Shown piece by piece: positions 4,967 to 60,304 of a stretch of 60,304 bases of DNA. Position 1 is the stretch's first letter; every line of letters starts with the position of its first letter. The stretch lies in the NCBI RefSeq assembly GCF_900128995.1, contig NZ_FQUE01000013.1:1-60304 (forward strand). The letters run 5' to 3'. Made by a program: the position numbers and the translations under genes. Under the pieces are notes generated by a model. The model was not told the DNA's origin. It worked only from the letters and a program-made list of their open reading frames with translations, and made no database searches. Origin of the DNA: Loktanella atrilutea (GTDB lineage Bacteria > Pseudomonadota > Alphaproteobacteria > Rhodobacterales > Rhodobacteraceae).

Positions 4967-5632
4967 TCAGATGTCGACGTATTCGATCCCGATCATTTCC
5001 CCGATCGTGCGGATCTCGTCCTCGACCGATGCCGCGCGCACCGGGCGTGCTGGCGCAATCCCATCCAGAACGTCCGGGCAGCGATCTCCGAAGAGCACCA
5101 ACGCGAATTCCGGACCGCACTGATACGAGGTGTAGAATATCCCTTCTGCCCAGCTCACATGAGTGTGGATGGCCTCCGCCCAGGCGCGTGTCGCCGGATA
5201 GTGAAGCGTGCCACCGCTGAGCAGCGCATTGCCCGTCAACCCCACCGCGCGCTGCCCCATTGCGGTCAGGTCTACCAGCTGCAGGTCCCGCTTGGTCCGG
5301 ATTGCGGAGTGCTGGTAGGCCGCGAAGTCCTGCGGGGACACTACCGTCAGCGCGCCGGGATCCGGGGCAGCATCCGGCGCGCGCAGGATGATCTCGCAAC
5401 TCGCACAACGGAAGGACTGGCCGGCATAGATGGTCGGGATGATATCGCCCCACAGATCGCGGATCGGGGAAAAGCGCGCGTTGCCGCGATCCGTCCCGTT
5501 GAACTGACAGGACCCGTAATCGCCATGATGGATCCGGTGCAGCTCGGTGCCGGCGGGCAGCCACTTGGGAAGCGGAGCTCGGAAGTTCTCCGGAGCCGGC
5601 TCTGCAAGCTTAATAACGATCGTCGCCGGCAT
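4967..5632 (-). CDS. RES-domain toxin (NAD+-degrading type)
   Basis: This 221-residue protein has the features of the RES family: an N-terminal LHRIHHGDYG segment, the conserved TDRGNARFSPI region with Arg and Ser, a central RDLQLVDLT segment, and WAEGIFYTSYQCG with conserved Tyr, Ser and Gln. Characterised RES toxins break down NAD+ (phosphorolysis or hydrolysis) and stop growth until neutralised. The gene is the second of a two-gene operon. Its ATG shares one base with the TGA of the upstream gene, so the two are translationally coupled in the usual antitoxin-first order. The protein looks full-length and intact, in contrast to all its decayed mobile-element neighbours. A role in plasmid maintenance by post-segregational killing is an inference from context. 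Confidence 0.85.
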   Translation of the reverse strand: MPATIVIKLAEPAPENFRAPLPKWLPAGTELHRIHHGDYGSCQFNGTDRGNARFSPIRDLWGDIIPTIYAGQSFRCASCEIILRAPDAAPDPGALTVVSPQDFAAYQHSAIRTKRDLQLVDLTAMGQRAVGLTGNALLSGGTLHYPATRAWAEAIHTHVSWAEGIFYTSYQCGPEFALVLFGDRCPDVLDGIAPARPVRAASVEDEIRTIGEMIGIEYVDI

Positions 5633-6333
5633 CAGCCATGCACAACCGGCTCGATAGCCCGCCGGAAAGCGTCAATGATCTCTGCATCCGCCTTCCCCAG
5701 CAGATCCGCGGGCGCGCACCCGAAATCGGCATGCTTGCGGCTCATCCAGTAGCAGAGGCGGAAATTGCTCCATGCCTCCGGGCGAAGGCTATTGATCTCG
5801 CGGATCACCGGATAAAGGCGTCCGTTCTCCACATCGAACTGGAAGAGCGGATAAGAGGGGCGTCCGTCCCGGTCAATGCGGATGATCTCGCCGCGATCTT
5901 CCACGCGCCGCAGTGTCGCTGATGGGTTCGATTTCGACAGCCGCAGCAACTCGCAGGCGTCGACCTGATCGGCCATATCCAGCTCGGCCAGGAACCGCTC
6001 CTGCAACCGGACCCGGTTCAGTGCCGTCTTGACGGCAAGGTTCTGGCCAGAAGGAAGGCTCTCCCGGATCAACCTACGATAGCCGTCGGCGAGCACCTTC
6101 AGCTCGAGGGAGAGTGCCGCTTCCGCCGCCTCTGCAAAATGGCTCGCCTTTCGGCGCTCGGGCACGTGCTCCGGACCCTTGAGATCACCTACGAAAACCA
6201 TCAGCATACCGCTTTTCGTGGCATGGGCCTCAAGCTGCTCGTAGCTCATAACATGGCGAGCGCCACAAGCATCTTCCGCGGGCCCGGCGACAATAGCAGT
6301 AAAGTCTTTATAAGTCTGCAGGAAGAAGTGCAT
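5632..6333 (-). CDS. Xre/MbcA/ParS-type antitoxin partner of the RES toxin
   Basis: This 233-residue protein precedes the RES gene with a one-base overlap. The C-terminal part (about 165-233), with YPLFQFDVENGRLYPVI, an aromatic LCYWMSRKH helix and DLLGKADAEIIDAFRRAI, has the pattern of the toxin-binding domain of Xre/MbcA/ParS antitoxins. The middle (about 118-160, VDACELLRLSKSNPSATLRR) looks like a small helix-turn-helix. At 233 residues it is longer than most antitoxins of the class, and the first 100 residues match nothing I know. An inverted repeat GTATT-N6-AATAC at 6358-6373, about 25 bases upstream of the ATG, is a weak candidate for an autoregulatory operator. Confidence 0.75.
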   Translation of the reverse strand: MHFFLQTYKDFTAIVAGPAEDACGARHVMSYEQLEAHATKSGMLMVFVGDLKGPEHVPERRKASHFAEAAEAALSLELKVLADGYRRLIRESLPSGQNLAVKTALNRVRLQERFLAELDMADQVDACELLRLSKSNPSATLRRVEDRGEIIRIDRDGRPSYPLFQFDVENGRLYPVIREINSLRPEAWSNFRLCYWMSRKHADFGCAPADLLGKADAEIIDAFRRAIEPVVHG

Positions 6334-6480: not shown

Positions 6481-7245
6481 GTGGACGGGCACAGCTGGAC
6501 CGAACCCAGGATCAATGGCTTTTCTGAGACCGATCTGCCCAAGCAGTTCGACAGCGGGCGCTACAACGTCCTCGTCGTCGCCGACAGATATTAGATGGGG
6601 TTCGACCAGCCCAAGCTGGTGGCGATGTATATCGACCGGCGCCTGAGCGGCTTGCAGGCTGTGCAGACGCTGGCGCGCCTGAACCGGATCTATCCGAGCA
6701 AGGAGCGCACCTACATTCTCGATTTCCGCAACACGATCGAGGACATCTAGACAGCCTTCAAGCCCTACTACAACGTGACGCAGCTGGAAGACATCTCCGA
6801 CCCAAACCAGGTCTACAACCTCGAGGCCCGCCTGAAGGCCTCCGGCGTGCTGGACGCGGCGGAGATCGACCGGTTCGTCGATCGCTTCATGACGGCCGCC
6901 CAGCGTGCCGACGAGCGCCTGGTGCTGGAAGGCATCGTCCGCCAGGTGGTGACACACTTCAGCGAGACCCTGAGCGAGGCCGACCAGGAAGAGTTCCGGC
7001 AGGTCCTGGCGTCCTTCTGCGCTTCTACTCGTTCATCGCCCAAGTCGTGAACCTCAACTACACCAGCCTCGAGAAGCTGCATATCTATGGCTCCTGGCTG
7101 AAACGCATCCTGCCATCGCGCCAGGCGCCGCAAGGCGAGGACGTGACGGACGACATGCTCGACATGGCGGCCTATCGTTTGCAGAAGGACGGCGACCCGC
7201 AAAACGCCAGCTTGGGCAAGGACGACACCGCGCCTGTGAGCTCGA
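6481..7245 (+). pseudogene. Type I restriction subunit R (hsdR) fragment, decayed
   Basis: The frame beginning near 6481 encodes the motor and C-terminal part of HsdR: INGFSETDLP, VLVVADRY, MGFDQPKLVAMYIDRRLSGL, LARLNRIYPSKERTYILDF. It is interrupted by two in-frame TAG codons (6592-6594 and 6748-6750), both where a Gln (CAG) is expected. A one-base deletion near 7017 then moves the reading into the next frame, which continues as RFYSFIAQVVNLNYTSLEKL and up to about 7245. The N-terminal nuclease domain, and hsdM and hsdS, are absent. Downstream it runs directly into the truncated IS30 copy. It is a dead relic of a restriction-modification locus. Confidence 0.8.
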
Positions 7246-7900
7246 TCAGAGAAGCCACGTTCGCCTTGCCCTGCGCTCGTTCGAAGATCATCAGATCGCC
7301 TTCCCACTCACCGAATGTCTCGCGCGTTTTGACGTAATCAGGCCGTGCGTGGATCGACCGATCTGGCGGAAATGTAAGGCCACGCGGTGTCCGTCTGCAA
7401 CGCGGCTGCCGTTTCCGGCGACGGTGCGGCAGGTAGCGCGCAAGTTCGTCTGACTGGCCATCGGGGCCATAGACGTAGGCATAGATGGTCTCGTGACTGA
7501 CGCAAAGAGATTGGCCATCATGCCGCAAACGGCCCGCAATCTGCTCGGGTGACCATCCTTCCACAAGCTGCTTGATGACGTGCTGTCGCAAATCCACGAA
7601 CCGCACCAGTTTGCAACGTCGTCTGCGCCAGTTCACGGCCGTCCGCTGCGCAGACATGTCGTAGTAGCCATTCAGCTTGGGCAGCTCGTTGTCGACGAAC
7701 CGGTTCCGTTTGATCTCGCGGTAGACTGTCGCGCGATGCCGACCGATCTCAGCTGCGATCTTGCAGATCGGGATCCTCGCGCTCAACATGTCTTCGATAG
7801 TACGCCGATCACGTAAATTTAGTTCAACGTGGGACATCTTCCGTTCTCCTTGCTTTGCAGCAAGATAGGGGATTTGTCGCAACCCAGTTTAGAATGTGCC
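7241..7900 (-). pseudogene. IS30-family transposase, truncated at the 3' end
   Basis: From ATG 7837 (ribosome-binding site AAGGAG about 9 bases upstream) the frame encodes about 199 residues of an IS30 transposase. It has the N-terminal helix-turn-helix (LRDRRTIEDML, IGRHRATVYREI), the middle WSPEQIAGRL and VSHETIYAYVY segments, and the start of the DDE domain (GEWEGDLMI). IS30 transposases are usually about 320-380 residues; here similarity ends near 7241 and the frame runs into hsdR-derived DNA, so most of the DDE domain is gone. The outer end carries the terminal block 7871-7900, identical to the left copy at 3508-3537. It is inactive. Confidence 0.8.
7871..7900 (-). repeat. IS30-type terminal sequence, copy 2
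   Basis: This 30-base block is identical to 3508-3537 and in the same orientation. The neighbouring 20-25 bases toward the transposase are also nearly identical between copies. Confidence 0.75.
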
Positions 7901-7978: not shown

Positions 7979-9241
7979 CTACGGGCCCACCGTGATGCGG
8001 AAACCCGGTAGCCATTTGTGCAGCGTCTTTCCGGGCAAAAGGACGGAATCTTCCCCCCAGGCCTCTCTGATCTGGCCGCCGCCGAAGGCCATGGGGCGCG
8101 CTGTGACCTGCGTGTCGGGAAACCGGTGCCGGAAGGCGTAGTCGATCTCGATCGGCTTCGCGATGTCTGCCTCGAACCGGATGCGGATCTGGCGGGGGCC
8201 CGCCAGATCGACCGCCACGATCCTGTTGCGGATGCGCGGCGCCAGGGAAAACCCGAAGTGATCGTAGGGATGCCGCGTGTCGATCACCAGCGGCGTGTCG
8301 GAGCTGACGGTGATGCAGGCGCTTCTGGCATCCAGCAGGCCCCAGTCCTGCGGCATCGGGCCGTTCCACGGCCGGCCCCGGTCGATCTCGCGGATCGCCG
8401 TCGCGGCAAGCTCTCCGATCAGGGCCTTCGCCTCTGCGTCGTGATGGATGAAATCGTCGAGCGCATAGGGATAGAGCGGCCCCAGGAACGTGAGGTTCGG
8501 GACGCTCCGGACATCCGGATGGATCGCGCCCTTCCGGACCTCCCAGTCGTTCCCGCCGAAGTTGTGATCCGTGCCCGCCGACTGCGTGACCAGCCAGTGG
8601 ACATCGAGGCCCAGCCCCGCCAGATGGGCATCAACGCGGCGCTTCATGTCGAGGAAGTCAGCCCAGTAGTCCTCGAATTTCGTCGACCGGTCGGCCTCGC
8701 CGTGGATGAACAGGATGTAACATCTGGTCATCCCTTCGCCGGACTGCGCCCCGATCTGCACCAGATCCTCTGCAGAGTTCAGAAGATCCTCGAACAGGGG
8801 CGAAATCTCTCCGTCGCTCAAACGGAATATGCCCGAGATCCTGTTTTTCGGCGAGGGCCGGCCGACAAGGCGCATGCCGCCCCGCGCGGCGGCCCGGACA
8901 TAGACCTTTTCGAAAAGGTTGCCGCCGACGAGGACGCTTCCCGCGGCATGCAGGATGGAGCTGTTCTCGATGTTGTGGTCGCTCAGGGGATGGACGCTTC
9001 CGACCTGATGCTCCTCGAGCCGCCTGCCATCGCGATAGAAGTCGCCCCTCCTGCTTCTGCGTGCACCGTCCGCCCCATAGAGATGGCCGCGCAACCCCAT
9101 GCCGGACGCCAACGCGACGACGCGCCTGTCTTCGAGTAACGGCGAGGACGGGCGCGGTCCGGCGACATGCGCTTCCGCATTCGATTGGCCATAACTCAGC
9201 AGCAACAGCGGGTTTCTTACACTTGGAGCAGCGTCGAGCAT
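7979..9241 (-). CDS. Sialate-O-acetylesterase-like SGNH hydrolase
   Basis: This 420-residue protein has no signal peptide that I can see. Residues 13-21 (LLLSYGQSN) hold the GQSN block that carries the nucleophilic Ser of the sialate O-acetylesterase (SASA, carbohydrate esterase 6) group. Further on, CYILFIHGEADRS followed by an aromatic and charged helix resembles the conserved QGEAD block of that family, and a C-terminal beta-rich part (about 310-420) looks like an accessory carbohydrate-binding or jelly-roll region. The expected role is removal of acyl groups from a glycan. It is transcribed away from the hydrolase and glycosyltransferase genes at 9.5-14.6 kb, with which it probably shares a substrate. 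The start is taken at the most upstream ATG because the GQSN motif lies so close to the N-terminus. The exact substrate is unknown. Confidence 0.65.
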   Translation of the reverse strand: MLDAAPSVRNPLLLLSYGQSNAEAHVAGPRPSSPLLEDRRVVALASGMGLRGHLYGADGARRSRRGDFYRDGRRLEEHQVGSVHPLSDHNIENSSILHAAGSVLVGGNLFEKVYVRAAARGGMRLVGRPSPKNRISGIFRLSDGEISPLFEDLLNSAEDLVQIGAQSGEGMTRCYILFIHGEADRSTKFEDYWADFLDMKRRVDAHLAGLGLDVHWLVTQSAGTDHNFGGNDWEVRKGAIHPDVRSVPNLTFLGPLYPYALDDFIHHDAEAKALIGELAATAIREIDRGRPWNGPMPQDWGLLDARSACITVSSDTPLVIDTRHPYDHFGFSLAPRIRNRIVAVDLAGPRQIRIRFEADIAKPIEIDYAFRHRFPDTQVTARPMAFGGGQIREAWGEDSVLLPGKTLHKWLPGFRITVGP

Positions 9242-9523
9242 TTGGATCTCTGTCTTTTCTTCAGGTCACTCAGAAATCCCATGAGGTTGTGGCTATATTA
9301 GGTCATGATGCTGTCGAGATACGCGCGCAGACCAGCCCTTGTTCAGCCACCGGCTGTTCGTCCAGCAACACGATGTCCACCCGTGGCCAGAACACAGAAG
9401 AACATCGCCTTTGAAACATGGCCAATCCGCCCCGCGACTGGTTATTGCCGCGCCTGCGCCATATCATGGGCCCGTATCCGATGGATGATCCCATCGTCGA
9501 CATCGAGCAGGCGGACGGACGGG

Positions 9524-10567
9524 ATGCTGATTTACGAGGGTGCGGACTATGCCGTCCGCAAGGTCTTTCTGACCCAGGCGGACCGTCAGGCCAAGGACAT
9601 CGCACCACCGGCCGGCGCGGCGGAGGGCGGTCCGGTCGTCGTGACCTTCCCCCATGCGGGCCCGCCCACGATGAACGCCGATCTGGCGTTCGGAGAGGTG
9701 TTCCTGCGCCGCAAGGGGATCGACGCCTATCACGTCATCAATGCCAAGGTCGACTGGTTCCAGTCGCCCGATATCATGCGCGCCCTTGCGGCGATCCGGG
9801 CCGATCTGCCGCCGGGGCGTCGGATCGTGACATACGGGTCCAGCATGGGCGGTTACGGCGCATTGCTCGGGTCGGGCCCGCTCGGGGCCGCGGCGGTCCT
9901 CGCGGCCGCACCGCAGTTCTCGATCGACCGGGCCGCTGTTCCGGACGAGGTCCGGTGGAAGGATCATGCGGCGCGGATCGGTCCCTTCATCCACCAGATC
10001 GAGGACCACATCTCTAGCGATGCACGGATCTATACCCTGCACGATCCGCGCAATTACGACGAGCGGCAGATCAACATGTTCGCCCCGCACCCGCACTGGA
10101 CCCAACTGCGCCTGCCCTACAGCGGTCATACGCCGCTGATGGTGCTGCAGCAAAGCGGCGTGCTGACCGAACTGATCCTGGATATCTGTCACGACCGGAT
10201 GGATTCCGCCGCCTGGCGCGCCCGCCTGCACGGCGTCCGCCGCCAGTCCCGGGCCTACTGGCGGGTCATCAGCGTCCATGCAGCCCGGATGGAACGGGCC
10301 GACTTCGCCTGGTACAGCTTTGCCAAGCTCAAGGCCCTTGGCGGGACACCGAAGGAATGCGAAGGCATCCGCATCTCGATCGAGCGCAACCTTGACCTGC
10401 GCCGTCGCCAGGCCGAGAGCCGGGCGCATATGGCCCGCCTGAAGGCCGAACGTGAGGCGCGACAGGCCTTGCGTGCCGAACGCCAGCAACACAAGGCTGT
10501 GTCGAAAGCCACCCCCGAAACACGGGCGCCGGACCGGACGGCTGCCCCGCAGGACCCGACCCCATGA
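9524..10567 (+). CDS. Alpha/beta-hydrolase-like protein, possibly frameshifted at its 5' end
   Basis: From ATG 9524 the protein has 347 residues. It contains TYGSSMGGYGALL, a nucleophile elbow with Ser107 as the likely catalytic Ser, and a later GHTPLMVL segment that could supply the His; the C-terminal 70 residues are Arg/Ala/Gln-rich and helical. The same domain occurs fused to glycosyltransferases in the next two genes (GTSMGAYAATAF). In the +1 frame, 9418-9520 reads as good high-GC coding sequence (MANPPRDWLLPRLRHIMGPY, ending EQADGR) that would join this protein if one G in the CGGG run near 9520 were removed. The real N-terminus may therefore be at 9418, disrupted by a frameshift or sequencing error. 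The stop overlaps the next start by four bases (ATGA). The substrate is unknown; a glycan-modifying role is inferred from the fusions. Confidence 0.65.
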   Translation: MLIYEGADYAVRKVFLTQADRQAKDIAPPAGAAEGGPVVVTFPHAGPPTMNADLAFGEVFLRRKGIDAYHVINAKVDWFQSPDIMRALAAIRADLPPGRRIVTYGSSMGGYGALLGSGPLGAAAVLAAAPQFSIDRAAVPDEVRWKDHAARIGPFIHQIEDHISSDARIYTLHDPRNYDERQINMFAPHPHWTQLRLPYSGHTPLMVLQQSGVLTELILDICHDRMDSAAWRARLHGVRRQSRAYWRVISVHAARMERADFAWYSFAKLKALGGTPKECEGIRISIERNLDLRRRQAESRAHMARLKAEREARQALRAERQQHKAVSKATPETRAPDRTAAPQDPTP

Positions 10568-12648
10568 CCGCAGGCCATCGCACGCTCATCGTCACGACCA
10601 AGAACGAAGGGCCCTTCCTGCTGGAATGGGTCGCCTATCACCGGCTGATCGGCTTCGACAACATCGTGGTCTTCGCCAACGACTGCGAGGACGGCAGCGA
10701 CACCCTGCTGACGGCACTTGATGCGGCGGGCCTGATCCGCTTCCACGACAACTCCGCCGTGACCGAGGGGCTGCCCGCCGATCCGCAGAACCGCGCCTAT
10801 CGCCGCGCCTTCGCGATGGATCACGTCACCGGGTCCGACTGGGTCATGGTGCTGGATGCGGACGAGTTTCTCAACATCCACGCGGGCGACGGCACGCTGG
10901 ATGCGCTCTTCGCCGCCACCGGCCCGGCCGACGTGATCTCCGGCACCTGGTGCATCTACGGCAACTCCGGCCTGATCGACTACGACGCCGGCCTCGTGAC
11001 CGAACGGTTCACCCGCTGCGCGCCCAAGGACGTGCAGGTGTCGTTCCGCCACTTCGGGATGAAGACCATGTTCCGCCCCGGCCCGGTGCACCGGCTGGGC
11101 ATCCACCGCCCCTTCCTGAAGGGCGAGTTCAAGCGCCCGGAGAACCCGCTGGTCTGGCTGAACGGGTCCGGCGCGGACGTGACCCCCTTCTTTCGCGAAA
11201 AGGGCTGGTCCGCCTCCATGGCCAACAAGGGCTACGACCTGTGCCAGATCAACCACTACATGATCAAGTCGAACGCCCTGTTCCTGATGAAGCGCTATCG
11301 CGGCACCGCCAACAGCGGCGATCAGGACCGGATCAACTTCGACTACTACGACAGCTTCAATTCCAACCACACCACCGACGACAGCCTGACGCGCTGGTCG
11401 GACCGGATCCGGGCCGAGCTCGCGCGCATGCGTGACTCGCACCCCGCCGTGGCCGCAGCCCATGACGCCTGCACGGCCTTCTTTCATGGCAAGATCGCAA
11501 GCCTGATGGCCGATCTGCGCGACGCCGATCCGGAGGTCACGGACCGCCTGCTGAACCCCGCCGCGGTCGCGGCCCAGATCGCCGCGGACGAGGCCTGGCT
11601 GGTCACCGCGCGCGCCGCAGCCGCCACCCGGGCCGCCCGCGCCGCCGCGGTTGCCGCCCCGACAACAGACCGGACAACAGACCCTGAACCGGCCCCGAAG
11701 ACCCCGGGGCCCGCCGCCGATGCCCCCGCCGCGCCAGAGACGCCGCGGATCGCGCCGGAGGATGCGGCGCCGCAGTGGCTGGCGGACCTGCGCCGGTCGG
11801 ATCACCGGATCGGATTCTACCGCTCCGACGTGCATTTCGGGGCCCATTTCGCGGAACGCGGGCTGGATCAGCTGGTGATCTCCTTCGACAACCTGTCGAA
11901 CGTGCGCGACCCGTCGCTGGCCCGCGACAGCTGGGGCTACGACTTCTACAAGGCCGAGGGCTGGTCACATCTGGGCGTGCTCAGCGTCGCGGCGAACTGG
12001 TATCGCGACGACGCCCTCTTCGACTACCTCGAGGGGCTGGCGCGGTCAGGCTTCTTCGACCGCTTCGGCCATGTCACCCTGACGGGGACCTCGATGGGGG
12101 CCTATGCGGCCACCGCCTTCGCCCGCCTGATCCCCGGCTGCACGGTGCTCGCCTTCTCTCCGCAGTCGACACTGGACACGGACATCGTGCCTTGGGAGGA
12201 GCGGTTTCCCTCGGGACGCAGGCAGGACTGGTCGGGGCGCTACCGCGACGCCACCACGGATCTGGACGCGGCGGGTCTGGTCTTCATCCTCTACGATCCG
12301 GGGTGCGCGCCGGACCTACAGCACGCGATGCGCTATCAGGGCGACAACGTCGTGCACCTCAGGACCTGGTTCGCGCACCACAAGTCGGCGCTGTTCCTGC
12401 GCCGAGCCGACATCCTCAAGGCGCTGGTGCGGCTGGCGGTGGCCGGCGCGCTCGACAGCGCCGCCTTCTACCGCCTCTACCGGGCGCGGCGGGCCCTGCC
12501 GTGGTACGTGAACGCGCTGGTGGAACGGGCCTGTGCCGGGGGTCATTACACCCTTGCGGGCCGGGTATCGGATGCGGTGGAACGCGACGGGCGGACGAAC
12601 CTCGGCCGGTCGATCCGCAACAAGATTGCACGGGATGCGGCGCAATAG
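10564..12648 (+). CDS. Glycosyltransferase fused to a hydrolase-like domain (copy 1)
   Basis: This 694-residue protein has two parts. Residues 1 to about 300 form a nucleotide-sugar glycosyltransferase of the Glyco_tranf_2_4/GT92-like kind: TTKNEGPFLLEWVAYHRLIG, then MVLDADEFLNIH with the metal-binding Asp98-Ala-Asp100, and a later KMxxRP-type region (FGMKTMFRPG) with HYMIKS. An Ala/Pro-rich linker occupies about 335-395. The C-terminal 300 residues hold an alpha/beta-hydrolase-like domain with LTGTSMGAYAA (Ser510) and conserved stretches such as FDNLSNVRDPSLARDSWGYD, which resemble no enzyme I can name. The gene overlaps the preceding hydrolase gene by four bases and is followed 30 bases later by a paralogue of the same architecture. 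No signal peptide or membrane segment is seen, so it is probably cytoplasmic or membrane-associated. Confidence 0.75.
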   Translation: MTAGHRTLIVTTKNEGPFLLEWVAYHRLIGFDNIVVFANDCEDGSDTLLTALDAAGLIRFHDNSAVTEGLPADPQNRAYRRAFAMDHVTGSDWVMVLDADEFLNIHAGDGTLDALFAATGPADVISGTWCIYGNSGLIDYDAGLVTERFTRCAPKDVQVSFRHFGMKTMFRPGPVHRLGIHRPFLKGEFKRPENPLVWLNGSGADVTPFFREKGWSASMANKGYDLCQINHYMIKSNALFLMKRYRGTANSGDQDRINFDYYDSFNSNHTTDDSLTRWSDRIRAELARMRDSHPAVAAAHDACTAFFHGKIASLMADLRDADPEVTDRLLNPAAVAAQIAADEAWLVTARAAAATRAARAAAVAAPTTDRTTDPEPAPKTPGPAADAPAAPETPRIAPEDAAPQWLADLRRSDHRIGFYRSDVHFGAHFAERGLDQLVISFDNLSNVRDPSLARDSWGYDFYKAEGWSHLGVLSVAANWYRDDALFDYLEGLARSGFFDRFGHVTLTGTSMGAYAATAFARLIPGCTVLAFSPQSTLDTDIVPWEERFPSGRRQDWSGRYRDATTDLDAAGLVFILYDPGCAPDLQHAMRYQGDNVVHLRTWFAHHKSALFLRRADILKALVRLAVAGALDSAAFYRLYRARRALPWYVNALVERACAGGHYTLAGRVSDAVERDGRTNLGRSIRNKIARDAAQ

Positions 12649-12678
12649 GTGTCCGCGGGCGACGGACAGGGGATCACC

Positions 12679-14634
12679 ATGACCGAAACCGCGACCCTGG
12701 TCGCCGCCGTGCGCAACGAGGGGCCCTTCCTGCTGGAATGGATCGCCTATCACCGGGTGATCGGCTTCGATACGATCGTCGTCTATGCGGACCAGACCCT
12801 CGACGGCACCGGGGCGCTGCTGGCGGCCCTGGATGCGGGCGGCGCGGTGATCCACGTGCCGAACCCGGTGGAGGCCGATCCCGCCATCCCCGGCCACCGC
12901 AACCGCGCCTATGCCGCGGCCATCGCCCTGCCGCAGGTCCGTAAGGCAAGCTGGGTCATGGCGCTAGATGCGGACGAGTTCCTGAACATCCACGCAGGCG
13001 ACGGTCATCTGTCCGACCTGCTGGACCGGATGCCGGATGCGGATGCGATCAGCCTGACTTGGCGGCTGTTCGGTCATGCCGGTCAAACCCGGTTCACCGA
13101 TGCCCCGGTGCTGGCCCGCTTCACCCGGGCCGCACCGCCCGACCGGGTCATCGGCAACCGGCAGTTCGGCCTCAAGACCCTGTTCCGCCCGGACCTCGCC
13201 CGCGCCATCGCACCCCACCGCCCCGTGGTGCGCGCCGGGCGCAGGGTGGACAATACCCTGTGGCTGAACGGGGCCGGTGACGACGTCACCGCCGACCTGC
13301 TGCACGGCGGCTGGCGCGCCGGCGCCGACACGGCCGCCTACGACCATGCCCAGATCAACCACTACGTCGTGCGCAGCACCGAGGTCTTTGCCCTGCACAA
13401 CCTGCGCACCCCTGCCCTGGGGTCAGAGCCTGTGCCCCTCACCCCTGCCGATTTCGACAATCTGAACGCCAACCAGACCACCGACCGCAGCATCCAGCGC
13501 CACGCGGATGCGGTCACGGCAGAGATCGCCCGCCTGCGCGCCCTGCCCGACGTGGCCCGCGCCCATGCCGCCTGCGTGCAGATCACGACGGCCCAGATCG
13601 CCGTAATGCAAGAGGCGCATGCCGCCGACCCGGACCACCCGGTGACGCGCCTCTGCGATCCGGCTACGGCGCAGCGGCAGCTGCGCGACCCGGCTGCCGC
13701 CCCTGACACGCCCCCCGGCCCTGACACGCCCGCGATCGCCGAGCCGGACCCCGGGGCCACGGCCCCGGAGGATGCCGCCCCCCGCTGGCTCTCTGACCTG
13801 CACCGGTCCGATCACCGCCGCGGCTGGTACCAGTCGCACCGGGACTTCGCGGTGCAGTTCACCGCCCGCAGCCCCGAGGTGCTGGTGGTCTCCTTCGACA
13901 ATCTCTCCAGCGTCAACGACCCGTCCCTCGCCCGCGATACCTGGGGCTACGGCTTCTATGCTGCCGAGGGCTGGTCCCACATGGGCGTCATGGCCTTCGA
14001 GAAGAACTGGTTCCGCGACACGGCCCTCTTCGACATGATGGAGAAGCTGCGCCACCTCTTCGCGCAGTACCGCACCGTGGTGATGACCGGCACCTCGATG
14101 GGGGCCTATGCGGCGACGGCCTTCGCCGATCTGGCCCCGGGCTGCACCGTGCTCGCCTTTTCGCCGCAGGCCACGCTGGATACGGCCCGCGTCCCGTGGG
14201 AGTCGCGTTTCGGCGCGGGGCGCAAGCGCGACTGGTCGGGCCGCTATGCCTTTGCCCCCGATCACTGCCGGACGGCGGCTGACGTCTTCGTCGTCCACGA
14301 CCCCTATTTCGAACCCGACCGCCTGCATGCGCAGCTCTATCGGGGGCCCAACATCCACCATCTGAAAAGCTGGTATGCCTCGCACAAGTCGGCCCAGTTC
14401 ATGCGTCGGGCCGACATCCTCAAGACCGTGATGCAAGAGGCCGTGGCCGGCACCCTGACGCCCGCGCGCTACTATGCCCTGTTCCGGTCGCGCCGCGATC
14501 TGGTGTGGTACTACATGGGGCTGGCCGATCACCTGCTGGCGCGCGGCCACCGGCGGCTGGCGGCGCAGCTGGCCGACCATCTGGTGACGCTGGACCGCCC
14601 CGGTCTGGCCCGGTCGATCCGCAAGCGGCTGTAG
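12679..14634 (+). CDS. Glycosyltransferase fused to a hydrolase-like domain (copy 2)
   Basis: This is a 651-residue paralogue of the preceding gene with the same order: glycosyltransferase (VRNEGPFLLEWIAYHRVIG; MALDADEFLNIH with Asp97/Asp99; FGLKTLFRPD), a Pro/Ala-rich linker at about 335-365, then the hydrolase-like domain (MTGTSMGAYAATAF, Ser473; FDNLSSVNDPSLARDTWGYG). The conserved features of both domains are present in both copies, so neither looks like a dead duplicate. The ATG at 12679 is chosen; an in-frame GTG at 12649 directly after the previous stop is possible but has no ribosome-binding site. The pair probably adds two related sugars or acts on two positions of the same glycan, with the C-terminal domain doing a coupled ester or acyl reaction. 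That is inference only. Confidence 0.75.
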   Translation: MTETATLVAAVRNEGPFLLEWIAYHRVIGFDTIVVYADQTLDGTGALLAALDAGGAVIHVPNPVEADPAIPGHRNRAYAAAIALPQVRKASWVMALDADEFLNIHAGDGHLSDLLDRMPDADAISLTWRLFGHAGQTRFTDAPVLARFTRAAPPDRVIGNRQFGLKTLFRPDLARAIAPHRPVVRAGRRVDNTLWLNGAGDDVTADLLHGGWRAGADTAAYDHAQINHYVVRSTEVFALHNLRTPALGSEPVPLTPADFDNLNANQTTDRSIQRHADAVTAEIARLRALPDVARAHAACVQITTAQIAVMQEAHAADPDHPVTRLCDPATAQRQLRDPAAAPDTPPGPDTPAIAEPDPGATAPEDAAPRWLSDLHRSDHRRGWYQSHRDFAVQFTARSPEVLVVSFDNLSSVNDPSLARDTWGYGFYAAEGWSHMGVMAFEKNWFRDTALFDMMEKLRHLFAQYRTVVMTGTSMGAYAATAFADLAPGCTVLAFSPQATLDTARVPWESRFGAGRKRDWSGRYAFAPDHCRTAADVFVVHDPYFEPDRLHAQLYRGPNIHHLKSWYASHKSAQFMRRADILKTVMQEAVAGTLTPARYYALFRSRRDLVWYYMGLADHLLARGHRRLAAQLADHLVTLDRPGLARSIRKRL

Positions 14635-14714
14635 CCCGCAGCCCGCAAGGCATCGCCTTTGCCCCCTTTTGCCTGTATCCCGTCGCACAGCAATCCTTGA
14701 AAGTCCCCTGCCCC

Positions 14715-15728
14715 ATGGCCCGCATCTTCGTTACCGGGACCGCCGGGTTCATCGGCTACCACCTCGCCCGGCTGCTGCTGGACGAGGGGCATACCGTGCA
14801 CGGCTACGACGGGATGACGGACTACTACGACGTCACGCTCAAGCGGCGACGCCACGCGATGCTGGCGCAGTCCCCCGCCTTCACCGCGGCGGAAGGGATG
14901 CTGGAGGATGCCGCGACCCTCGATGCCGCCGTCGACGCCTGCGCGCCGCAGGTCATTGTCCACCTCGCGGGCCAGGCCGGGGTGCGCTACAGCCTCGAGG
15001 CACCGCGCGCCTACCTCGACGCCAACGTCATCGGCAGCTTCAACGTGATGGAGGCCGCGCGGCGGCACCGGGTCGACCACCTGATGATGGCCTCGACCTC
15101 CTCGGTCTACGGCGCCAATACCGAGATGCCCTTCGCAGAGACGCAGAGGACCGTGACGCCGCTCACGATCTACGCCGCCTCCAAGCAGGCGACCGAGGCG
15201 ATGGGCCATGCCTATGCCCACCTGCACGACCTGCCGACGACGCTGTTCCGCTTCTTCACGGTCTACGGGCCCTGGGGGCGGCCCGACATGGCGCCGATCA
15301 AGTTCGTGCGGGCGATCCTCGCGGGGGATCCGATCGACGTCTACAACCACGGCAGCATGTCCCGCGACTTCACCTATGTCACCGATCTGGTGCGTGGAAT
15401 CCGCCTGCTGGTGTTCGACGCCATCCCCCGGCGCCCCGCGGACGGCATCGTCCCCGAAGGCGACAGCCTGTCGCCGGTCGCGCCCTTCCGGGTGGTGAAC
15501 ATCGGTAACGGCCACCCCGAGCGCCTGCCCGATTTCATCGCCGCGATCGAGGCCGCGCTGGACATGACCGCCCTGCGCCACGACATGCCGATGCAGCCCG
15601 GCGACGTCCCCGCCACCTGGGCCGACGGGGGCCTGCTGGAGCGTCTCACCGGCTACCGCCCGCAAACCGACATGCGCGACGGCGTCAGGCAGTTCGTGGC
15701 CTGGTACAGGGACTATTACCGGGTCTAG
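14715..15728 (+). CDS. UDP-glucuronate 4-epimerase-like NAD-dependent epimerase
   Basis: This 337-residue short-chain epimerase has an N-terminal NAD-binding GTAGFIGYHLA motif (residues 8-18), the MASTSSVYGAN active-site Ser/Thr segment and a YAASK catalytic pair (Tyr153, Lys157). The segments YDGMTDYYDVTLKRRR and FTVYGPWGRPDMA are typical of bacterial UDP-glucuronate 4-epimerases (the LspL/CapI group), which make UDP-galacturonate from UDP-glucuronate. The product would feed a galacturonate-containing polysaccharide. The gene lies 80 bases after the second fusion gene and before the YjbH/YjbF genes, so it may belong to the same transcript. It is full-length. No UDP-glucose dehydrogenase is present in the window, so UDP-GlcA must come from elsewhere. 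Confidence 0.85.
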   Translation: MARIFVTGTAGFIGYHLARLLLDEGHTVHGYDGMTDYYDVTLKRRRHAMLAQSPAFTAAEGMLEDAATLDAAVDACAPQVIVHLAGQAGVRYSLEAPRAYLDANVIGSFNVMEAARRHRVDHLMMASTSSVYGANTEMPFAETQRTVTPLTIYAASKQATEAMGHAYAHLHDLPTTLFRFFTVYGPWGRPDMAPIKFVRAILAGDPIDVYNHGSMSRDFTYVTDLVRGIRLLVFDAIPRRPADGIVPEGDSLSPVAPFRVVNIGNGHPERLPDFIAAIEAALDMTALRHDMPMQPGDVPATWADGGLLERLTGYRPQTDMRDGVRQFVAWYRDYYRV

Positions 15729-15893
15729 GGTCTGGGTGATACCGCAACGGGTGGGTGCAGGTCGCGGCGAACCTTCCGATTCGGCTGCTGGCCGGGCCGC
15801 ATCTGCGGCGAAACCGTGCCGCACAGGACAATAAGACGTTTCCAATCGACGGGCGGAGTTGGTAAGCAGACCGGGGATGATGCGGGGATCGTG

Positions 15894-18110
15894 ATGTACA
15901 GACGTGTGGGTTATGCGGCGATGCTGGCGATGCTGGCCGGCGGTGCCGCAGCACAGGACAACGGGCCGTCCTACACCAGCTTTGGCACCCCCGGTCTGCT
16001 GGAGATGCCGACCGCCGAAAGCGCCGATCCCAACGACATCGCGGTGACGCTGGCCTATTCGCCGTCTGCCGGCTACCGCACCTCCTTCACTTACCAGCTG
16101 ACCGACCGGCTGTCGGGCAGCTTCCGCTACGGCGTCTTCGATCAGTACGGACGACCGACCGCGACCAACCCCGATCCCGGCACCTTCGAGACCTTCGACC
16201 GCAGCTTCGACATCCAGTACCGCCTGACCAACGAAAGCGGCTACCTGCCCGCCATCGCCGTGGGCCTGAGGGATTTCCTGGGCACCGGGCGCTACAGTTC
16301 CGAATACGTCGTGGCCTCGAAGTCGGTGGGATCGAAGCTCGTCATGACCGCCGGCCTCGGCTGGGGCCGGATGGGGCAGAAGAACGGCTTCGGCAACCCG
16401 CTGGGCGTGGTCAGCGACTATTTCGACGACCGCCCCGTCTATCAGGACCGCGAGTTCAGCGACGATCCCTCCGTGGGCCTCGGCGGCCAGCTGTCGGTCA
16501 AGCAGTGGTTCCGCGGCGACGCGGCGCTGTTCTTCGGCGCCGAATACCAGCTGACGGACAAGCTGGGGATCAAGGCGGAATATTCCTCGATCAGCTACCC
16601 CGAGGACGTGTACAACCCGGCGGTCGACTACAAGTCGCCGATCAACGTGGGCCTGTCCTACCGCTACAAGCCCGGGATCGAGCTCGGCGCCTCCTACATG
16701 TACGGCAGCGAATTCGGTCTGCGCGGCACCTTCATCCTGAACCCGACGGAACGCGGCACCGCCAGCGGCCTCGATCCCGCACCCGCCCCGGTGCGGGTGC
16801 GCACCGCCGACCAGCGCGCCGCCGCCACATGGGACCGGGCGAAGCAGCCCGAACCCGCCGTGCGCGCGGGCCTCGCCAAGCTGCTGGCGGTCGAGGGGAT
16901 CGAGCTCGTCGGGCTGGAACTGACCGACCGCACTGCCCGCCTGCGCTACCAGAACACCCGCTACCGGAGCGAGGCGCAGGCCATGGGCCGTGCCGCACGG
17001 ATGATGACGCAGATCATCCCGCCCTCGGTGCAGACCTTCGTCATGGAACCGGTGCAGGCCGGGATTCCGCTGTCACAGGTCACCCTGCCCCGCGCCCAGA
17101 TCGAGGCGCAGGAGAACATGGTCGGCGGCACCAGTGCGATCTACGATGCGGCCACCTTCGGCCAGGCCGGTGCTGCCACGGGGCTGGAGACGCTGCCGGA
17201 CCCCGATCCGCGGTTCCGCTGGGGCATCGCCCCCTATCTGGCAGTGACCGTTTTCGACGGGTCAGGTCCGATAAACGCCGATGTCGGTTTAGAGGCCACA
17301 GCGGAATACCAAGTCAGCCGCAACCTGATTCTTTCAGGCAGGGTCCAGCAGTCGTTCCGCGGCAAGCGTGACCCGCTGGGCTTTTTCGACAATCCCAACG
17401 ACTACGCCAACGTGCGCAGCGACCAAGCCTATTTCGGACGTTCGGGCGATCCGATCCTCAGCAAGCTGACGGCGGCCTACTACACGCGCCTGACACCGGA
17501 CATCTATGGCCGCGTCACCGTGGGTTATCTGGAAAAGATGTACGGCGGCATCTCGACAGAAGTGCTTTGGGCGCCGGTCGCCAGCCGCCTGGCCCTGGGG
17601 GCCGAGGTGAACTACGTCAGCATGCGCGACCAGGACGTCAATTTCGACTTCGCCGAATACAAGACCGTCGTGGATCCGGTGACCCGCGAACGCACGCGCG
17701 TCAAGACCGGCACCTTCGACGCCGTCACCGCCCATGTCTCGGCCTATTACGACATCGGCCGTGGCTATCAGGCGCAGGTCGACGTGGGCCGCTACCTCGC
17801 GGGCGACTACGGTGCCACCTTCGCGCTGGACCGCGAATACGCCAACGGCTGGAAGGTCGGGGGCTACTTCTCGCTGACCGACATGCCGTTCGACCAGTTC
17901 GGCGAAGGCTCCTTCGACAAGGGCATCCGCATCACGATCCCCTACGACTACTTCCTCGGCACGCCGACACAGAAGACGACCAGCACGGTGCTGCAGTCGC
18001 TCGCCCGCGACGGCGGCGCGCGCGTGCAGGTCGACGGTCGCCTGTACGAGACGATCCGCAGCGGCCAGCTGGGCGATCTGACCACAACATGGGGACGGTT
18101 CTGGCGATGA
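15894..18110 (+). CDS. yjbH: YjbH-family outer-membrane exopolysaccharide protein
   Basis: This 738-residue protein has a signal peptide (MYRRVGYAAMLAML, cleavage after AAAQ near residue 21). The start of the mature protein, SFGTPGLLEMPTAESADPND, is characteristic of YjbH (also called GfcD), an outer-membrane beta-barrel lipoprotein-like factor of exopolysaccharide and group 4 capsule loci. The barrel-like C-terminal half has alternating aromatic strands, and a soluble middle part (about 310-420, RVRTADQRAAATWDRAKQ) separates the two barrel-like regions. ATG 15894 is preferred to the adjacent GTG 15891 and to the longer frame. The last four bases overlap the start of the YjbF gene, so the two are coupled. 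It probably helps secrete or shape an exopolysaccharide at the outer membrane. Confidence 0.85.
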   Translation: MYRRVGYAAMLAMLAGGAAAQDNGPSYTSFGTPGLLEMPTAESADPNDIAVTLAYSPSAGYRTSFTYQLTDRLSGSFRYGVFDQYGRPTATNPDPGTFETFDRSFDIQYRLTNESGYLPAIAVGLRDFLGTGRYSSEYVVASKSVGSKLVMTAGLGWGRMGQKNGFGNPLGVVSDYFDDRPVYQDREFSDDPSVGLGGQLSVKQWFRGDAALFFGAEYQLTDKLGIKAEYSSISYPEDVYNPAVDYKSPINVGLSYRYKPGIELGASYMYGSEFGLRGTFILNPTERGTASGLDPAPAPVRVRTADQRAAATWDRAKQPEPAVRAGLAKLLAVEGIELVGLELTDRTARLRYQNTRYRSEAQAMGRAARMMTQIIPPSVQTFVMEPVQAGIPLSQVTLPRAQIEAQENMVGGTSAIYDAATFGQAGAATGLETLPDPDPRFRWGIAPYLAVTVFDGSGPINADVGLEATAEYQVSRNLILSGRVQQSFRGKRDPLGFFDNPNDYANVRSDQAYFGRSGDPILSKLTAAYYTRLTPDIYGRVTVGYLEKMYGGISTEVLWAPVASRLALGAEVNYVSMRDQDVNFDFAEYKTVVDPVTRERTRVKTGTFDAVTAHVSAYYDIGRGYQAQVDVGRYLAGDYGATFALDREYANGWKVGGYFSLTDMPFDQFGEGSFDKGIRITIPYDYFLGTPTQKTTSTVLQSLARDGGARVQVDGRLYETIRSGQLGDLTTTWGRFWR

Positions 18111-18784
18111 GCATGCGTAGGATGACGAAGCGCGCGGCGGCAGTCTGGACAATGGCGGCCCTTGCGGCCTTGGTGGGTTGCGGCCCCATGAACGAGGGCA
18201 ACCTGGCGGGCACCGCCCTGACCGCGGTCCGCGCCCGCTTCGACGGCACGCCGGCCACGCCAGCCCCCACCGCCCCGGTGCTGACCCGCGCGCAGGTCGA
18301 CGCCAATCCGGGCGGTTTCCTTGTGATGAACGCCTACGGCGGCAGCCTCGTGGCGGCCCTGGCGGCGGGCGGATCGAACGGCAGCCGGATCACTTGGATC
18401 TCGGCCGAGGGGCTGTCGGTGACGACGCAGAACGGCCTGATGGTGGCCACCCGCGGCTTTCCCCGCGACCTGATGGCGGCGGATGTCAGCGGCGTGATGC
18501 GCGCCCTCGTGGCCAGCGGCGGCGGCGCCACCCGCAGGCAGGAGGTGCTGTCGGACACCGACCAGATCGAGACGGTGACCTACGCCTGCAACGTGACGTC
18601 CAAAGGGCGCGAGACGATCGGCATCCTCGGCCGCCAGATCGGCACCGAGCGGTTCGAGGAGGCCTGCGCCTCTGACCGGCTGGCCTTCACCAACCAGTAC
18701 TGGATCGACGATTCCGGCACCATGGTGCGCAGCCTGCAGGCCATCGCGCCGGAATCGGGCTACATCCAGCTCGACCGGCCCTGA
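18107..18784 (+). CDS. yjbF: YjbF-family lipoprotein
   Basis: This 225-residue lipoprotein has a basic N-terminus (MSMRRMTKRAAA), a hydrophobic stretch and a lipobox ending in LVGCG near residue 25. The body, with NAYGGSLVAALAAGG, TWISAEGLSVTTQNGLMVATRG and FTNQYWIDDSG, matches YjbF/GfcB-type lipoproteins encoded next to YjbH in exopolysaccharide loci. The gene overlaps yjbH by four bases (ATGA). It is expected to be anchored in a periplasm-facing membrane leaflet and to work with YjbH. A short GC hairpin (stem CCGAC/GTCGG, 18793-18806) follows the stop and may end the transcript. Confidence 0.85.
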   Translation: MSMRRMTKRAAAVWTMAALAALVGCGPMNEGNLAGTALTAVRARFDGTPATPAPTAPVLTRAQVDANPGGFLVMNAYGGSLVAALAAGGSNGSRITWISAEGLSVTTQNGLMVATRGFPRDLMAADVSGVMRALVASGGGATRRQEVLSDTDQIETVTYACNVTSKGRETIGILGRQIGTERFEEACASDRLAFTNQYWIDDSGTMVRSLQAIAPESGYIQLDRP

Positions 18785-25621: not shown

Positions 25622-26614
25622 TCAGCGCGTCACGCGGCCCTTGAGCCAGCCAAGGAAGGCGGCATCGGGGCTGCGCAGGGCGGGGCGGCCAGTGGCGGCC
25701 CAGAAGCCGCGCCATTCGGATTCCAGCGCATGCACGTCGAAGCCCGGGGCCATGCGGCGGGTGGCGTCGAGGGTCTCCGCCCCTAAGGGGCGCAGGCCGG
25801 CCTGATCGGCCGAGAGGCCGCGGCGGGTGACGCAGATGATGTCGCCGCTCTCCTCGGCCAAGGCATAGTCGGGCAGGCCGTCGGCCGCGATCATCCGGCG
25901 GAGGGCGGCGCGGAAGACGCGCAGCGGCGCATCCGATCCCGCCTTCTCGTGCAGGGTGGCGACGGAGGCGCGCCAGAGCCGCTGCTGGCCGCAGTGCTTG
26001 CGGGCGATCTCGTAGATCCGCCGCTCCAGCGGCTTGCGCAGGCCGAAGTAGTCGCGGGACAGCGTCAGCACCGATTTCGCCTGCACCGCCCGGAACAGCC
26101 ATTCGGACAGCGTCACGGTCACGCTGACCATGCGGCCGCCGCGGGACTTGCGCACGATCTCCCAGGCCTCGATCAGGCCGAAGCCCGACGTCGTCTCCTC
26201 CTCGCCCGTGGTGATGTTGGTGGTGATCCGGGTGCCCGCCAGCCGCTCGAAGGCCTCGCAGAGGCGGGCGTAGCTGTCGCCGCCCGTGTCGCGGCGCGTG
26301 GCGATCAGCAGGTCGTGGGCGGTCAGCGTCAGCTTGCGCGCGATCTGGCGTCCGGCGTTCACGGCCGCCATCAGCTGGCTGATGCAGTAGATCAGGATGT
26401 CCTTGTCGTGGATCGTGGCGCGGCCCCGGACCGACGGCGTCACCGTGATCGTCGTATCGCCGCGGGCGTAGTGGCGGATCGTGCGGTCGGGCCGGGTCGA
26501 GAGCGAGAACATCGGATGTTCCATCCCGCCCATGTCGGTCTTGGGCGCGGCATCGAAGATGTCGCAGACGAAGAAATCCGCAGGTCCCCCCTGCCCCGTT
26601 GCCAGTGCTGTCAT
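25622..26614 (-). CDS. repA: Plasmid replication initiator RepA
   Basis: This protein of about 330 residues is of the RepA (RPA family) initiator type used by one of the main roseobacter plasmid classes. Recognisable features are FFVCDIFDAAPKTDMGGMEH, a winged-helix-like SLSTRPDRTIRHY segment, KDILIYCISQLMAA, SGFGLIEAWEIVRKSRGGRM and RDYFGLRKPLERRIYEIARK. It binds origin repeats and starts replication. It is encoded divergently from parA-parB, and the origin features (DnaA box, iterons, AT-rich tract) lie directly upstream. ATG 26614 is preferred to an in-frame GTG at 26623. The presence of this gene is the main evidence that the window is a plasmid. Confidence 0.9.
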   Translation of the reverse strand: MTALATGQGGPADFFVCDIFDAAPKTDMGGMEHPMFSLSTRPDRTIRHYARGDTTITVTPSVRGRATIHDKDILIYCISQLMAAVNAGRQIARKLTLTAHDLLIATRRDTGGDSYARLCEAFERLAGTRITTNITTGEEETTSGFGLIEAWEIVRKSRGGRMVSVTVTLSEWLFRAVQAKSVLTLSRDYFGLRKPLERRIYEIARKHCGQQRLWRASVATLHEKAGSDAPLRVFRAALRRMIAADGLPDYALAEESGDIICVTRRGLSADQAGLRPLGAETLDATRRMAPGFDVHALESEWRGFWAATGRPALRSPDAAFLGWLKGRVTR

Positions 26615-26723
26615 TGCCCGCACCTGTCCGTCTGTGGCCCCGGTTGTTGTGGGGTCCTGCTGCTCTGCCGGTCGTTGCCGGAATCACCCGAAGTCTCTTC
26701 GTGGTTTCAGTGACACTCTAGAG

Positions 26724-60041: not shown

Positions 60042-60304
60042 ATGATGGAAACGACAGATCTGGACGGGGTAATAATCCTGACACCGCGTGTCTTTTCGGA
60101 TGCGCGTGGCTCTTTCCAAGAGACCTACAACCGGCACACGTTGGCGGGTCTGGGGATCGACACGGTCTTCGTGCAGGACAACCAGAGCTGGAGCCGCGAG
60201 GCCGGTACCGTGCGCGGCCTGCATTTCCAGGCGCCACCCCATGCACAGGCCAAGATTGTGCGGGTGCTGGTGGGTGAGATCTTCGATGTCGCCGTCGACA
60301 TCCG
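60042..60304 (+). CDS. rmlC: dTDP-4-dehydrorhamnose 3,5-epimerase, truncated by window edge
   Basis: The first 87 residues of RmlC (RfbC) are present: LTPRVFSDARGSFQETYNRH, VFVQDNQSWSREAGTVRGLH and FQAPPHAQAKIVRVLVGEIF, including the conserved QDN and the RGLHFQ segment with the catalytic His. The frame is still open at the last base. The two consecutive ATG codons at 60042 and 60045 are equivalent start choices. RmlC makes dTDP-4-keto-L-rhamnose, so the genes following beyond the edge are probably rmlA, rmlB and rmlD. Its presence on a RepA-type replicon is the hallmark of roseobacter biofilm plasmids. Confidence 0.93.
   Translation, partial: MMETTDLDGVIILTPRVFSDARGSFQETYNRHTLAGLGIDTVFVQDNQSWSREAGTVRGLHFQAPPHAQAKIVRVLVGEIFDVAVDI

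Follow-up and report, generated by a model that had tools for sequence, protein, structure and literature searches.

The closest described counterpart of the proteins analysed here is CsaC (SacC/MynC), the capsule O-acetyltransferase of Neisseria meningitidis serogroup A, an enzyme with an alpha/beta-hydrolase (ABH) fold that acts on a phosphodiester-linked capsule through a Ser114-Asp198-His228 triad extended by Gln138 (PMC7501274). In the parts of that work drawn on here, the Q138A replacement cost ca. 97% of the activity, R148 was found to position the acceptor, and the same type of Gln was described as highly conserved across several uncharacterised nucleophile-elbow proteins, its role there being left open (PMC7501274). 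ORF5 of the K15 capsule cluster is a putative ABH O-acetyltransferase whose activity is predicted only (PMC7387560), and Asp2 of the accessory Sec system is a GlcNAc O-acetyltransferase with Ser, Asp and His that works together with glycosyltransferases (PMC5578698, PMC7948813). Here we analyse two tandem genes of Loktanella atrilutea, each of which joins a glycosyltransferase (GT) to an ABH-like domain and which are preceded by a free-standing copy of that domain. They lie on contig NZ_FQUE01000013.1, the whole of which (60,304 bases, from a 4.2 Mb genome) is called the window below. We propose, with a probability of roughly 60%, that the fusions are cytoplasmic bifunctional GT/CsaC-like O-acyltransferases of exopolysaccharide assembly. 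ABH-fold glycan O-acetyltransferases and GT2 enzymes are both known kinds of protein, while their fusion appears to be new, and we found no description of an ABH O-acetyltransferase-GT2 fusion in the open-access literature. Nothing that we found contradicts the initial annotation of this DNA, which knew of no characterised enzyme with this architecture.

Fusion protein 1 is encoded at 10564-12648 (+) and has 694 amino acids (aa), and fusion protein 2 follows at 12649-14634 (+). The second would have 661 aa from GTG 12649, which directly abuts the stop codon of the first, and 651 aa from ATG 12679, which is the more likely start. Both consist of an N-terminal GT2_4 domain, an Ala/Pro-rich linker and a C-terminal ABH domain, and they are tandem paralogues with 46% identity over 684 columns (E 0.0). 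The N-terminal halves are clear members of PF13704 (Glyco_tranf_2_4), with E values of 3.8e-21 (75.8 bits) and 3e-17 (63.4 bits) against a curated cut-off of 27.5; what sets them apart from other members is the fusion to ABH. In fusion 1 the match covers residues 13-115 (10600-10908, +) and encloses the motif LDADEF, a DxD-type metal motif of the DxDE form found in both proteins. The ABH domain of fusion 1 occupies residues 397-694 (11752-12645, +) and that of fusion 2 residues 371-661 in GTG numbering (13759-14631, +). GTSMGAYAA is common to the two, with the proposed nucleophile at Ser510 in fusion 1 and at Ser483 in fusion 2 (Ser473 from the ATG start). A Pfam search of the C-terminal ca. 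295 residues, which had been suggested as a check, gave no match for either fusion at E<=1, PF00756 included. The pair of adjacent GT-hydrolase-like paralogues that was seen in the initial annotation is therefore real.

We aligned 34 ABH-domain sequences, the window's own included (alignment A1; adding 396 to a column gives the residue of fusion 1). Columns that are invariant or nearly so include Phe45, Trp83, Gly112, Ser114, Gly116, Pro137, Gln138, Arg151, Asp182, Asp188 and His210. Lack of a conserved His or Asp around the Ser had been named at the outset as a finding that would speak against a hydrolase-like domain, yet 42 of 80 family domains, the free copy and both fusions of the window included, jointly retain Ser, Asp and His (columns 114, 182 and 210); the 80 are what was left of 91 domain rows from the fetched loci after short and duplicate rows were dropped, and the profile used for the count was built from A1, many members of which are among the 80. 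On the basis of these alignment columns, Ser510-Asp578-His606 is the proposed triad of fusion 1. Gln138 is present in 40 of the 42 triad-bearing domains, and so is Arg151. The glutamine forms part of a Pro-Gln motif, 24 residues past the Ser, that was found in all 34 sequences of A1. The order GxSxG, Asp, His is also that of CsaC, which acts in polysaccharide assembly and carries the Gln of its own Pro-Gln exactly 24 residues past the Ser. An Arg in the following segment is also shared, at +34 in CsaC (R148) and at +37 in the window (Arg547). In contrast, no fusion to a GT is reported for CsaC in the parts of its description used here (PMC7501274). The extension residues H201 and Y79 of CsaC are without a clear counterpart in the window family, and the conserved Trp (column 83) and His (column 191) could be their equivalents at different positions. 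We consider the Pro-Gln motif the best clue to function that these sequences offer.

A further comparison is provided by the alpha/beta-hydrolase gene from the capsule locus of Escherichia coli 536, which we take to be a K15 strain. This sequence, called K15 below, appears to be the putative O-acetyltransferase ORF5 (PMC7387560). In a PDB search it aligns with CsaC through GSSKGG...APQAKL (E 0.0072). Its GGSMGGYAAL and NPQTSL align with GTSMGAYAA and SPQSTL of the window, and the Pro-Gln is found at the same spacing as in APQAKL of CsaC/SacC. The Asp-to-His spacing given for ORF5, +28 (PMC7387560), is also that of the window family, and a GT gene is present in the same capsule cluster; ORF5 differs in being stand-alone and not fused. 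Among 346 open reading frames (ORFs), K15 scored 38.6 bits (E 1.5e-11) with profile A4, which does not contain it, and 25.2 bits with A1. The likeness to CsaC is therefore an argument from motif and spacing, joined to a profile match of moderate strength with an enzyme that is itself predicted, and not proof of membership.

The initial annotation treated this domain as part of a cassette, and its distribution is much wider than that, the protein family being a large one of which little has been described. The ABH domain, with or without the triad, was found in 234 of 295 genomes of Rhodobacteraceae (E<=0.001) and, at E<=1e-10, in at least 9 of 289 genomes of the class and at least 24 of 299 of the phylum, both of which samples include Rhodobacteraceae members and had no more than 7-8 candidates scored in each genome. 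Its linkage to GTs was examined in two groups of 20 loci each. In the first, picked by similarity to the window and so biased towards fusions, GT2_4 was in the same ORF or at most 2 kb away in 17 loci. In the second, picked among weaker matches of ca. 300-360 aa, GT2_4 was at most 400 bp from the ABH gene in 14 loci, and the other 6 had none in the stretch. Genomes contain only 2 to 11 PF13704 matches (41 genomes), and from these counts and the genome sizes the chance expectation of a GT2_4 within 2 kb is ca. 0.4 of the 40 loci. Both orders of fusion exist: the window, Loktanella and a Paracoccus have GT-ABH, and six loci (L019-L024) have ABH-GT. Other partners of the ABH domain are a Gb3-synthase-like part (E 0.0018, below the cut-off), a marginal sulfotransferase match (E 0.047) and a tail like the product of the divergent gene at 7979-9241. 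The DxDE motif is retained in 70 of 72 GT rows (76 minus near-duplicates and gappy rows, with one truncated fusion 1 copy counted as GT alone). The GT motif is degenerate in two fusions, those of Loktanella sp. IMCC34160 and a tandem copy of Paracoccus liaowanqingii, both of which have intact GxSxG and Asp/His motifs, so the ABH half seems to be constrained apart from the GT half. The P. liaowanqingii genes, on a plasmid (8938-13361 of that locus), form a tandem GT-ABH pair as in the window, and it is the second copy that is GT-degenerate and keeps GTSMGGY.

A different situation is found in the second group of loci, which have a repeated gene order: GT2_4, sulfotransferase, GT2_4, GT2_4, ABH and three genes that, from the look of their sequences, are presumably pyrC, pyrE and dnaB. 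The order is complete in 10 of the 20 loci and lacks the sulfotransferase in 2 more, with extra small genes in places. The pyrC-linked ABH proteins mostly have GxGxC in place of GxSxG and mostly lack His210. The 38 of the 80 domains without a full triad are made up of 4 outliers and 34 rows that form one fork (100/100), mostly pyrC-linked and adjoining triad-bearing rows in the tree. The source genome itself holds one such nucleophile-less copy. Of the 34 rows of this clade (L012, L065-L084), 30 retain Pro-Gln, and most have the Arg as well. This fits a nucleophile that was lost once while the rest of the pocket was kept, provided that the root of the tree, which was rooted at the midpoint, falls outside the fork, on which the placement of the fork inside the family also hinges. 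The sister proteins are probably pseudo-enzymes, and our guess is that they act as non-catalytic partners of GTs. That such a clade persists, often beside GT2_4 genes, could be taken to mean that the ABH domain at large serves the GT chiefly by binding glycan or by forming a complex with it, its catalysis being secondary or lost. We think this improbable as a general role, considering that every window copy is among the 42 triad-bearing domains and that the remainder is confined to the one fork and the outliers.

The comparison with esterases is where the acyltransferase reading has to be weighed. As controls we used 30 S-formylglutathione-hydrolase-like sequences, labelled as esterases from their GHSMGGHG motif and PF00756. 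Their nucleophile region is similar to that of the ABH family and they probably belong to the same fold class, with a profile-profile value of 95.7% over 48 columns around the nucleophile. Weak matches to Pfam ABH families were found in A1 at E<=0.1, to PF00756 in 18 of the 34 sequences (best 4e-5) and to Abhydrolase_6 in 13; the window domains stay below the curated cut-off of PF00756, and some relatives, which reach E 4e-5, may pass it. The C-terminal domain, as far as its sequence tells, is an alpha/beta-hydrolase relative, a fold that we infer. Several results argue against a CsaC-like transferase. The best PDB matches of the family profiles are esterases, lipases and other hydrolases, and CsaC was not among the matches at E<=10 with profiles A1, A4 or A5. 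Identity of the family to K15 is 14-20%, and K15 ORF5 is itself a predicted enzyme. The esterase profile, like A4 and A1, places K15 first of the 346 ORFs (21.2 bits), and in pairwise comparison K15 has a median of 12.9 bits with the esterases (n=30) and 6.7 with the ABH family (n=79), although the two highest single scores belong to family members (26.6 and 21.1 bits). Finally, the Gln may be structural, since the nucleophile-less clade keeps it.

Much of this, namely the solved esterases and lipases, the weak PF00756 matches and the K15 median, speaks for a domain that hydrolyses and that would, in the cytoplasm and alongside chain extension by the GT, either de-esterify glycan intermediates or proofread precursors that are mis-acylated. 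We rate such a role as rather unlikely. The position after the Pro, which is Gln in CsaC and in the putative K15 enzyme, is Ile in 29 and Leu in 1 of the esterase controls and Gln in none of the 30, although these are mutually close relatives and not 30 independent cases. Besides, a deacylase fused to a GT needs an enzyme that acylates beforehand, and a scan of 30 other proteins of the window, a subset of its genes, identified none. Other families gave low scores. With the Asp2 profile (TIGR03712) the best value was 15.0 bits against a cut-off of 210.75, from distant family members only, and Asp2 also differs in that it serves protein export and acts on a glycoprotein. XcbB/CpsF (NF033892) was considered and rejected as the family: the free copy has 10.7 bits and the best relative 27.2 against a cut-off of 125, one relative reaches E 2.2e-6, far under that cut-off, and comparison with an above-cut-off protein gave a probability of 4.6-12%.

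According to the bifunctional GT/O-acyltransferase model, the GT2_4 half would extend the growing glycan by a sugar taken from a nucleotide-sugar donor. Ser510, activated by His606 and Asp578, would take up the acyl group, in the simplest case acetyl from acetyl-CoA, as a covalent ester, and this Ser-acyl intermediate would be attacked by a glycan hydroxyl on the same chain rather than by water. Gln534 would hold the acyl-Ser in place, and Arg547 may be a binding residue for the acceptor or the donor. The three proteins may differ from one another in the position or the acceptor that they use, the free ABH protein being possibly a third acyltransferase with another specificity. Of this model, the two domains, their conserved residues, the linkage to GT genes and the plasmid-like surroundings are seen in the sequences, and the fold, the acyl donor, the acceptor and transfer in place of hydrolysis are inferred. 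An evident membrane stretch was found neither in the fusions nor in the free copy nor in the 7979-9241 protein (maximum 19-residue Kyte-Doolittle mean 1.51 or less), which fits the cytoplasm and would suit an acyl-CoA donor.

The free-standing ABH-domain protein (9524-10567, +; 347 aa from ATG 9524) belongs to a separate and rarer subfamily, found in 10 of 290 genomes at E<=1e-20. Counting from its translation, it has a proposed nucleophile Ser107 in GSSMGG, a Pro-Gln motif with Gln131, Asp174 and His202. It shares 23% identity with the C-terminus of fusion 2 (E 4e-12) and was also found by a whole-genome search with fusion 1 (E 9.9e-7), in agreement with the initial annotation, which had described the preceding gene as a related domain (GSSMGGYG) standing alone. 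Its stop codon overlaps the start of fusion 1 as ATGA, which makes the translational coupling of both genes, also claimed there, plausible. The start of the cassette, in contrast, had been set at 9418 and has to be moved. ATG 9418 opens a different frame (199 aa), and the free-copy gene most likely begins at ATG 9524, where codon scoring begins the gene and near which the family domain starts. A frameshift in the free copy was considered and discarded, given that codon scoring and the family alignment both put the start at ca. 9524, the segment 9418-9523 not itself having been used as a query.

The divergent gene (7979-9241, -) codes for a 420-aa protein with a GQSN block that looks SGNH-like by eye. 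It had been called sialate-O-acetylesterase-like and credited with trimming the product; the divergent ORF and the GQSN block are there, but no Pfam or NCBIfam match was found at E<=1, the sialate O-acetylesterase profile included. There is a weak likeness (E 1e-7 to 3e-6) between its C-terminal half and the tail of two different ABH fusions from other genomes, based on three rows, two of them of identical sequence, and GQS was not found in those fusions. Trimming by this protein is without family support and was dropped. The other part of that proposal, acyl chemistry coupled to glycosylation on a surface glycan, is supported by the conserved triad columns, by the exopolysaccharide and GT gene context, and by the Pro-Gln shared with capsule O-acetyltransferases, and it stays as a candidate function. 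An IS30-like transposase gene, identified by eye (7172-7882, -), adjoins the GQSN gene at its 3' end. Nearer to the start of the window, a RES-domain gene (PF08808) overlaps a 233-aa partner gene without a Pfam match (4967-6333, -); they are likely a RES/Xre-type toxin-antitoxin pair.

On the other side of the fusions, the next gene codes for an NAD-dependent epimerase (14697-15728, +; PF01370, 7.3e-52), followed by the exopolysaccharide proteins YjbH (15891-18110, +; PF06082, 9.3e-186) and YjbF (18089-18784; PF11102, 1.5e-31). The contig also contains a RepA replication initiator (25622-26623, -; PF10134), a probable RepA-I type plasmid marker, and genes for ParA-like, mannose-1-phosphate guanylyltransferase-type, GDP-mannose dehydratase-type, polysaccharide export, ABC-2 transport, GT, LicD, CDP-glycerol-type transferase and sulfotransferase proteins. 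RepA and ParA are 89.7% and 96.0% identical to their counterparts on plasmid plas1 of Loktanella salsilacus, where rfbC, rfbB, rfbD and rfbA are found in a row with an adjoining GT-ABH gene, 59.9% identical to fusion 2. The window stops inside rfbC (60042-60304, +; 87 aa, 73.6% identity to that of the L. salsilacus plasmid), the start of a rhamnose operon, so the remainder of the operon probably lies past the contig end. The two ends of the contig do not overlap. It is probably a RepA-I "biofilm"-type plasmid; a polysaccharide-gene-rich RepA-I plasmid has been described (PMC3910692), and in Phaeobacter inhibens deletion of a plasmid-borne rhamnose operon led to less attachment (PMC11481893). 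Two sequences labelled as Bacillus velezensis plasmids look like mislabelled or contaminating roseobacter plasmids: NZ_CP061939.1 carries a GT-ABH fusion, and NZ_CP061940.1 has a RepA 78% identical to that of the window.

Near the end of the contig (54231-59840, -) there is a set of genes for a CDP-glycerol glycerophosphotransferase/GT4 fusion, LicD, a cytidylyltransferase and two sulfotransferases, possibly for a glycerol-phosphate or sulfated polymer. The presence of the glycerophosphotransferase, LicD and cytidylyltransferase-like genes, together with the phosphodiester-linked substrate of CsaC, leaves a small chance that the ABH domains transfer an acyl group other than acetyl, use for example acyl carrier protein or a glycolipid as the donor in place of acyl-CoA, or act on a phosphodiester polymer; the best studied precedent uses acetyl-CoA.

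More tentatively, the GT2_4 enzymes and Gln-extended ABH O-acyltransferases, fused in either order or adjacent, may form a glycan decoration system that spans the Rhodobacteraceae, in which a sugar would be added and the chain acylated in one pass, and in which the dead sister, retained next to pyrC and often near GT2_4 and sulfotransferase genes, would have turned into a non-catalytic partner of the same GTs. If this were true, acyl groups would determine where chains can be extended. The family is also a large set of candidates for the question that the CsaC work raised about Gln-bearing uncharacterised proteins, and being physically tied to GTs makes the role of such proteins testable. If our proposal is right, these genes would offer a candidate handle on the acylation of roseobacter polysaccharides, on a contig that resembles the plasmids involved in attachment, and their nucleophile-less sisters a natural experiment in how an enzyme turns into a dead partner.

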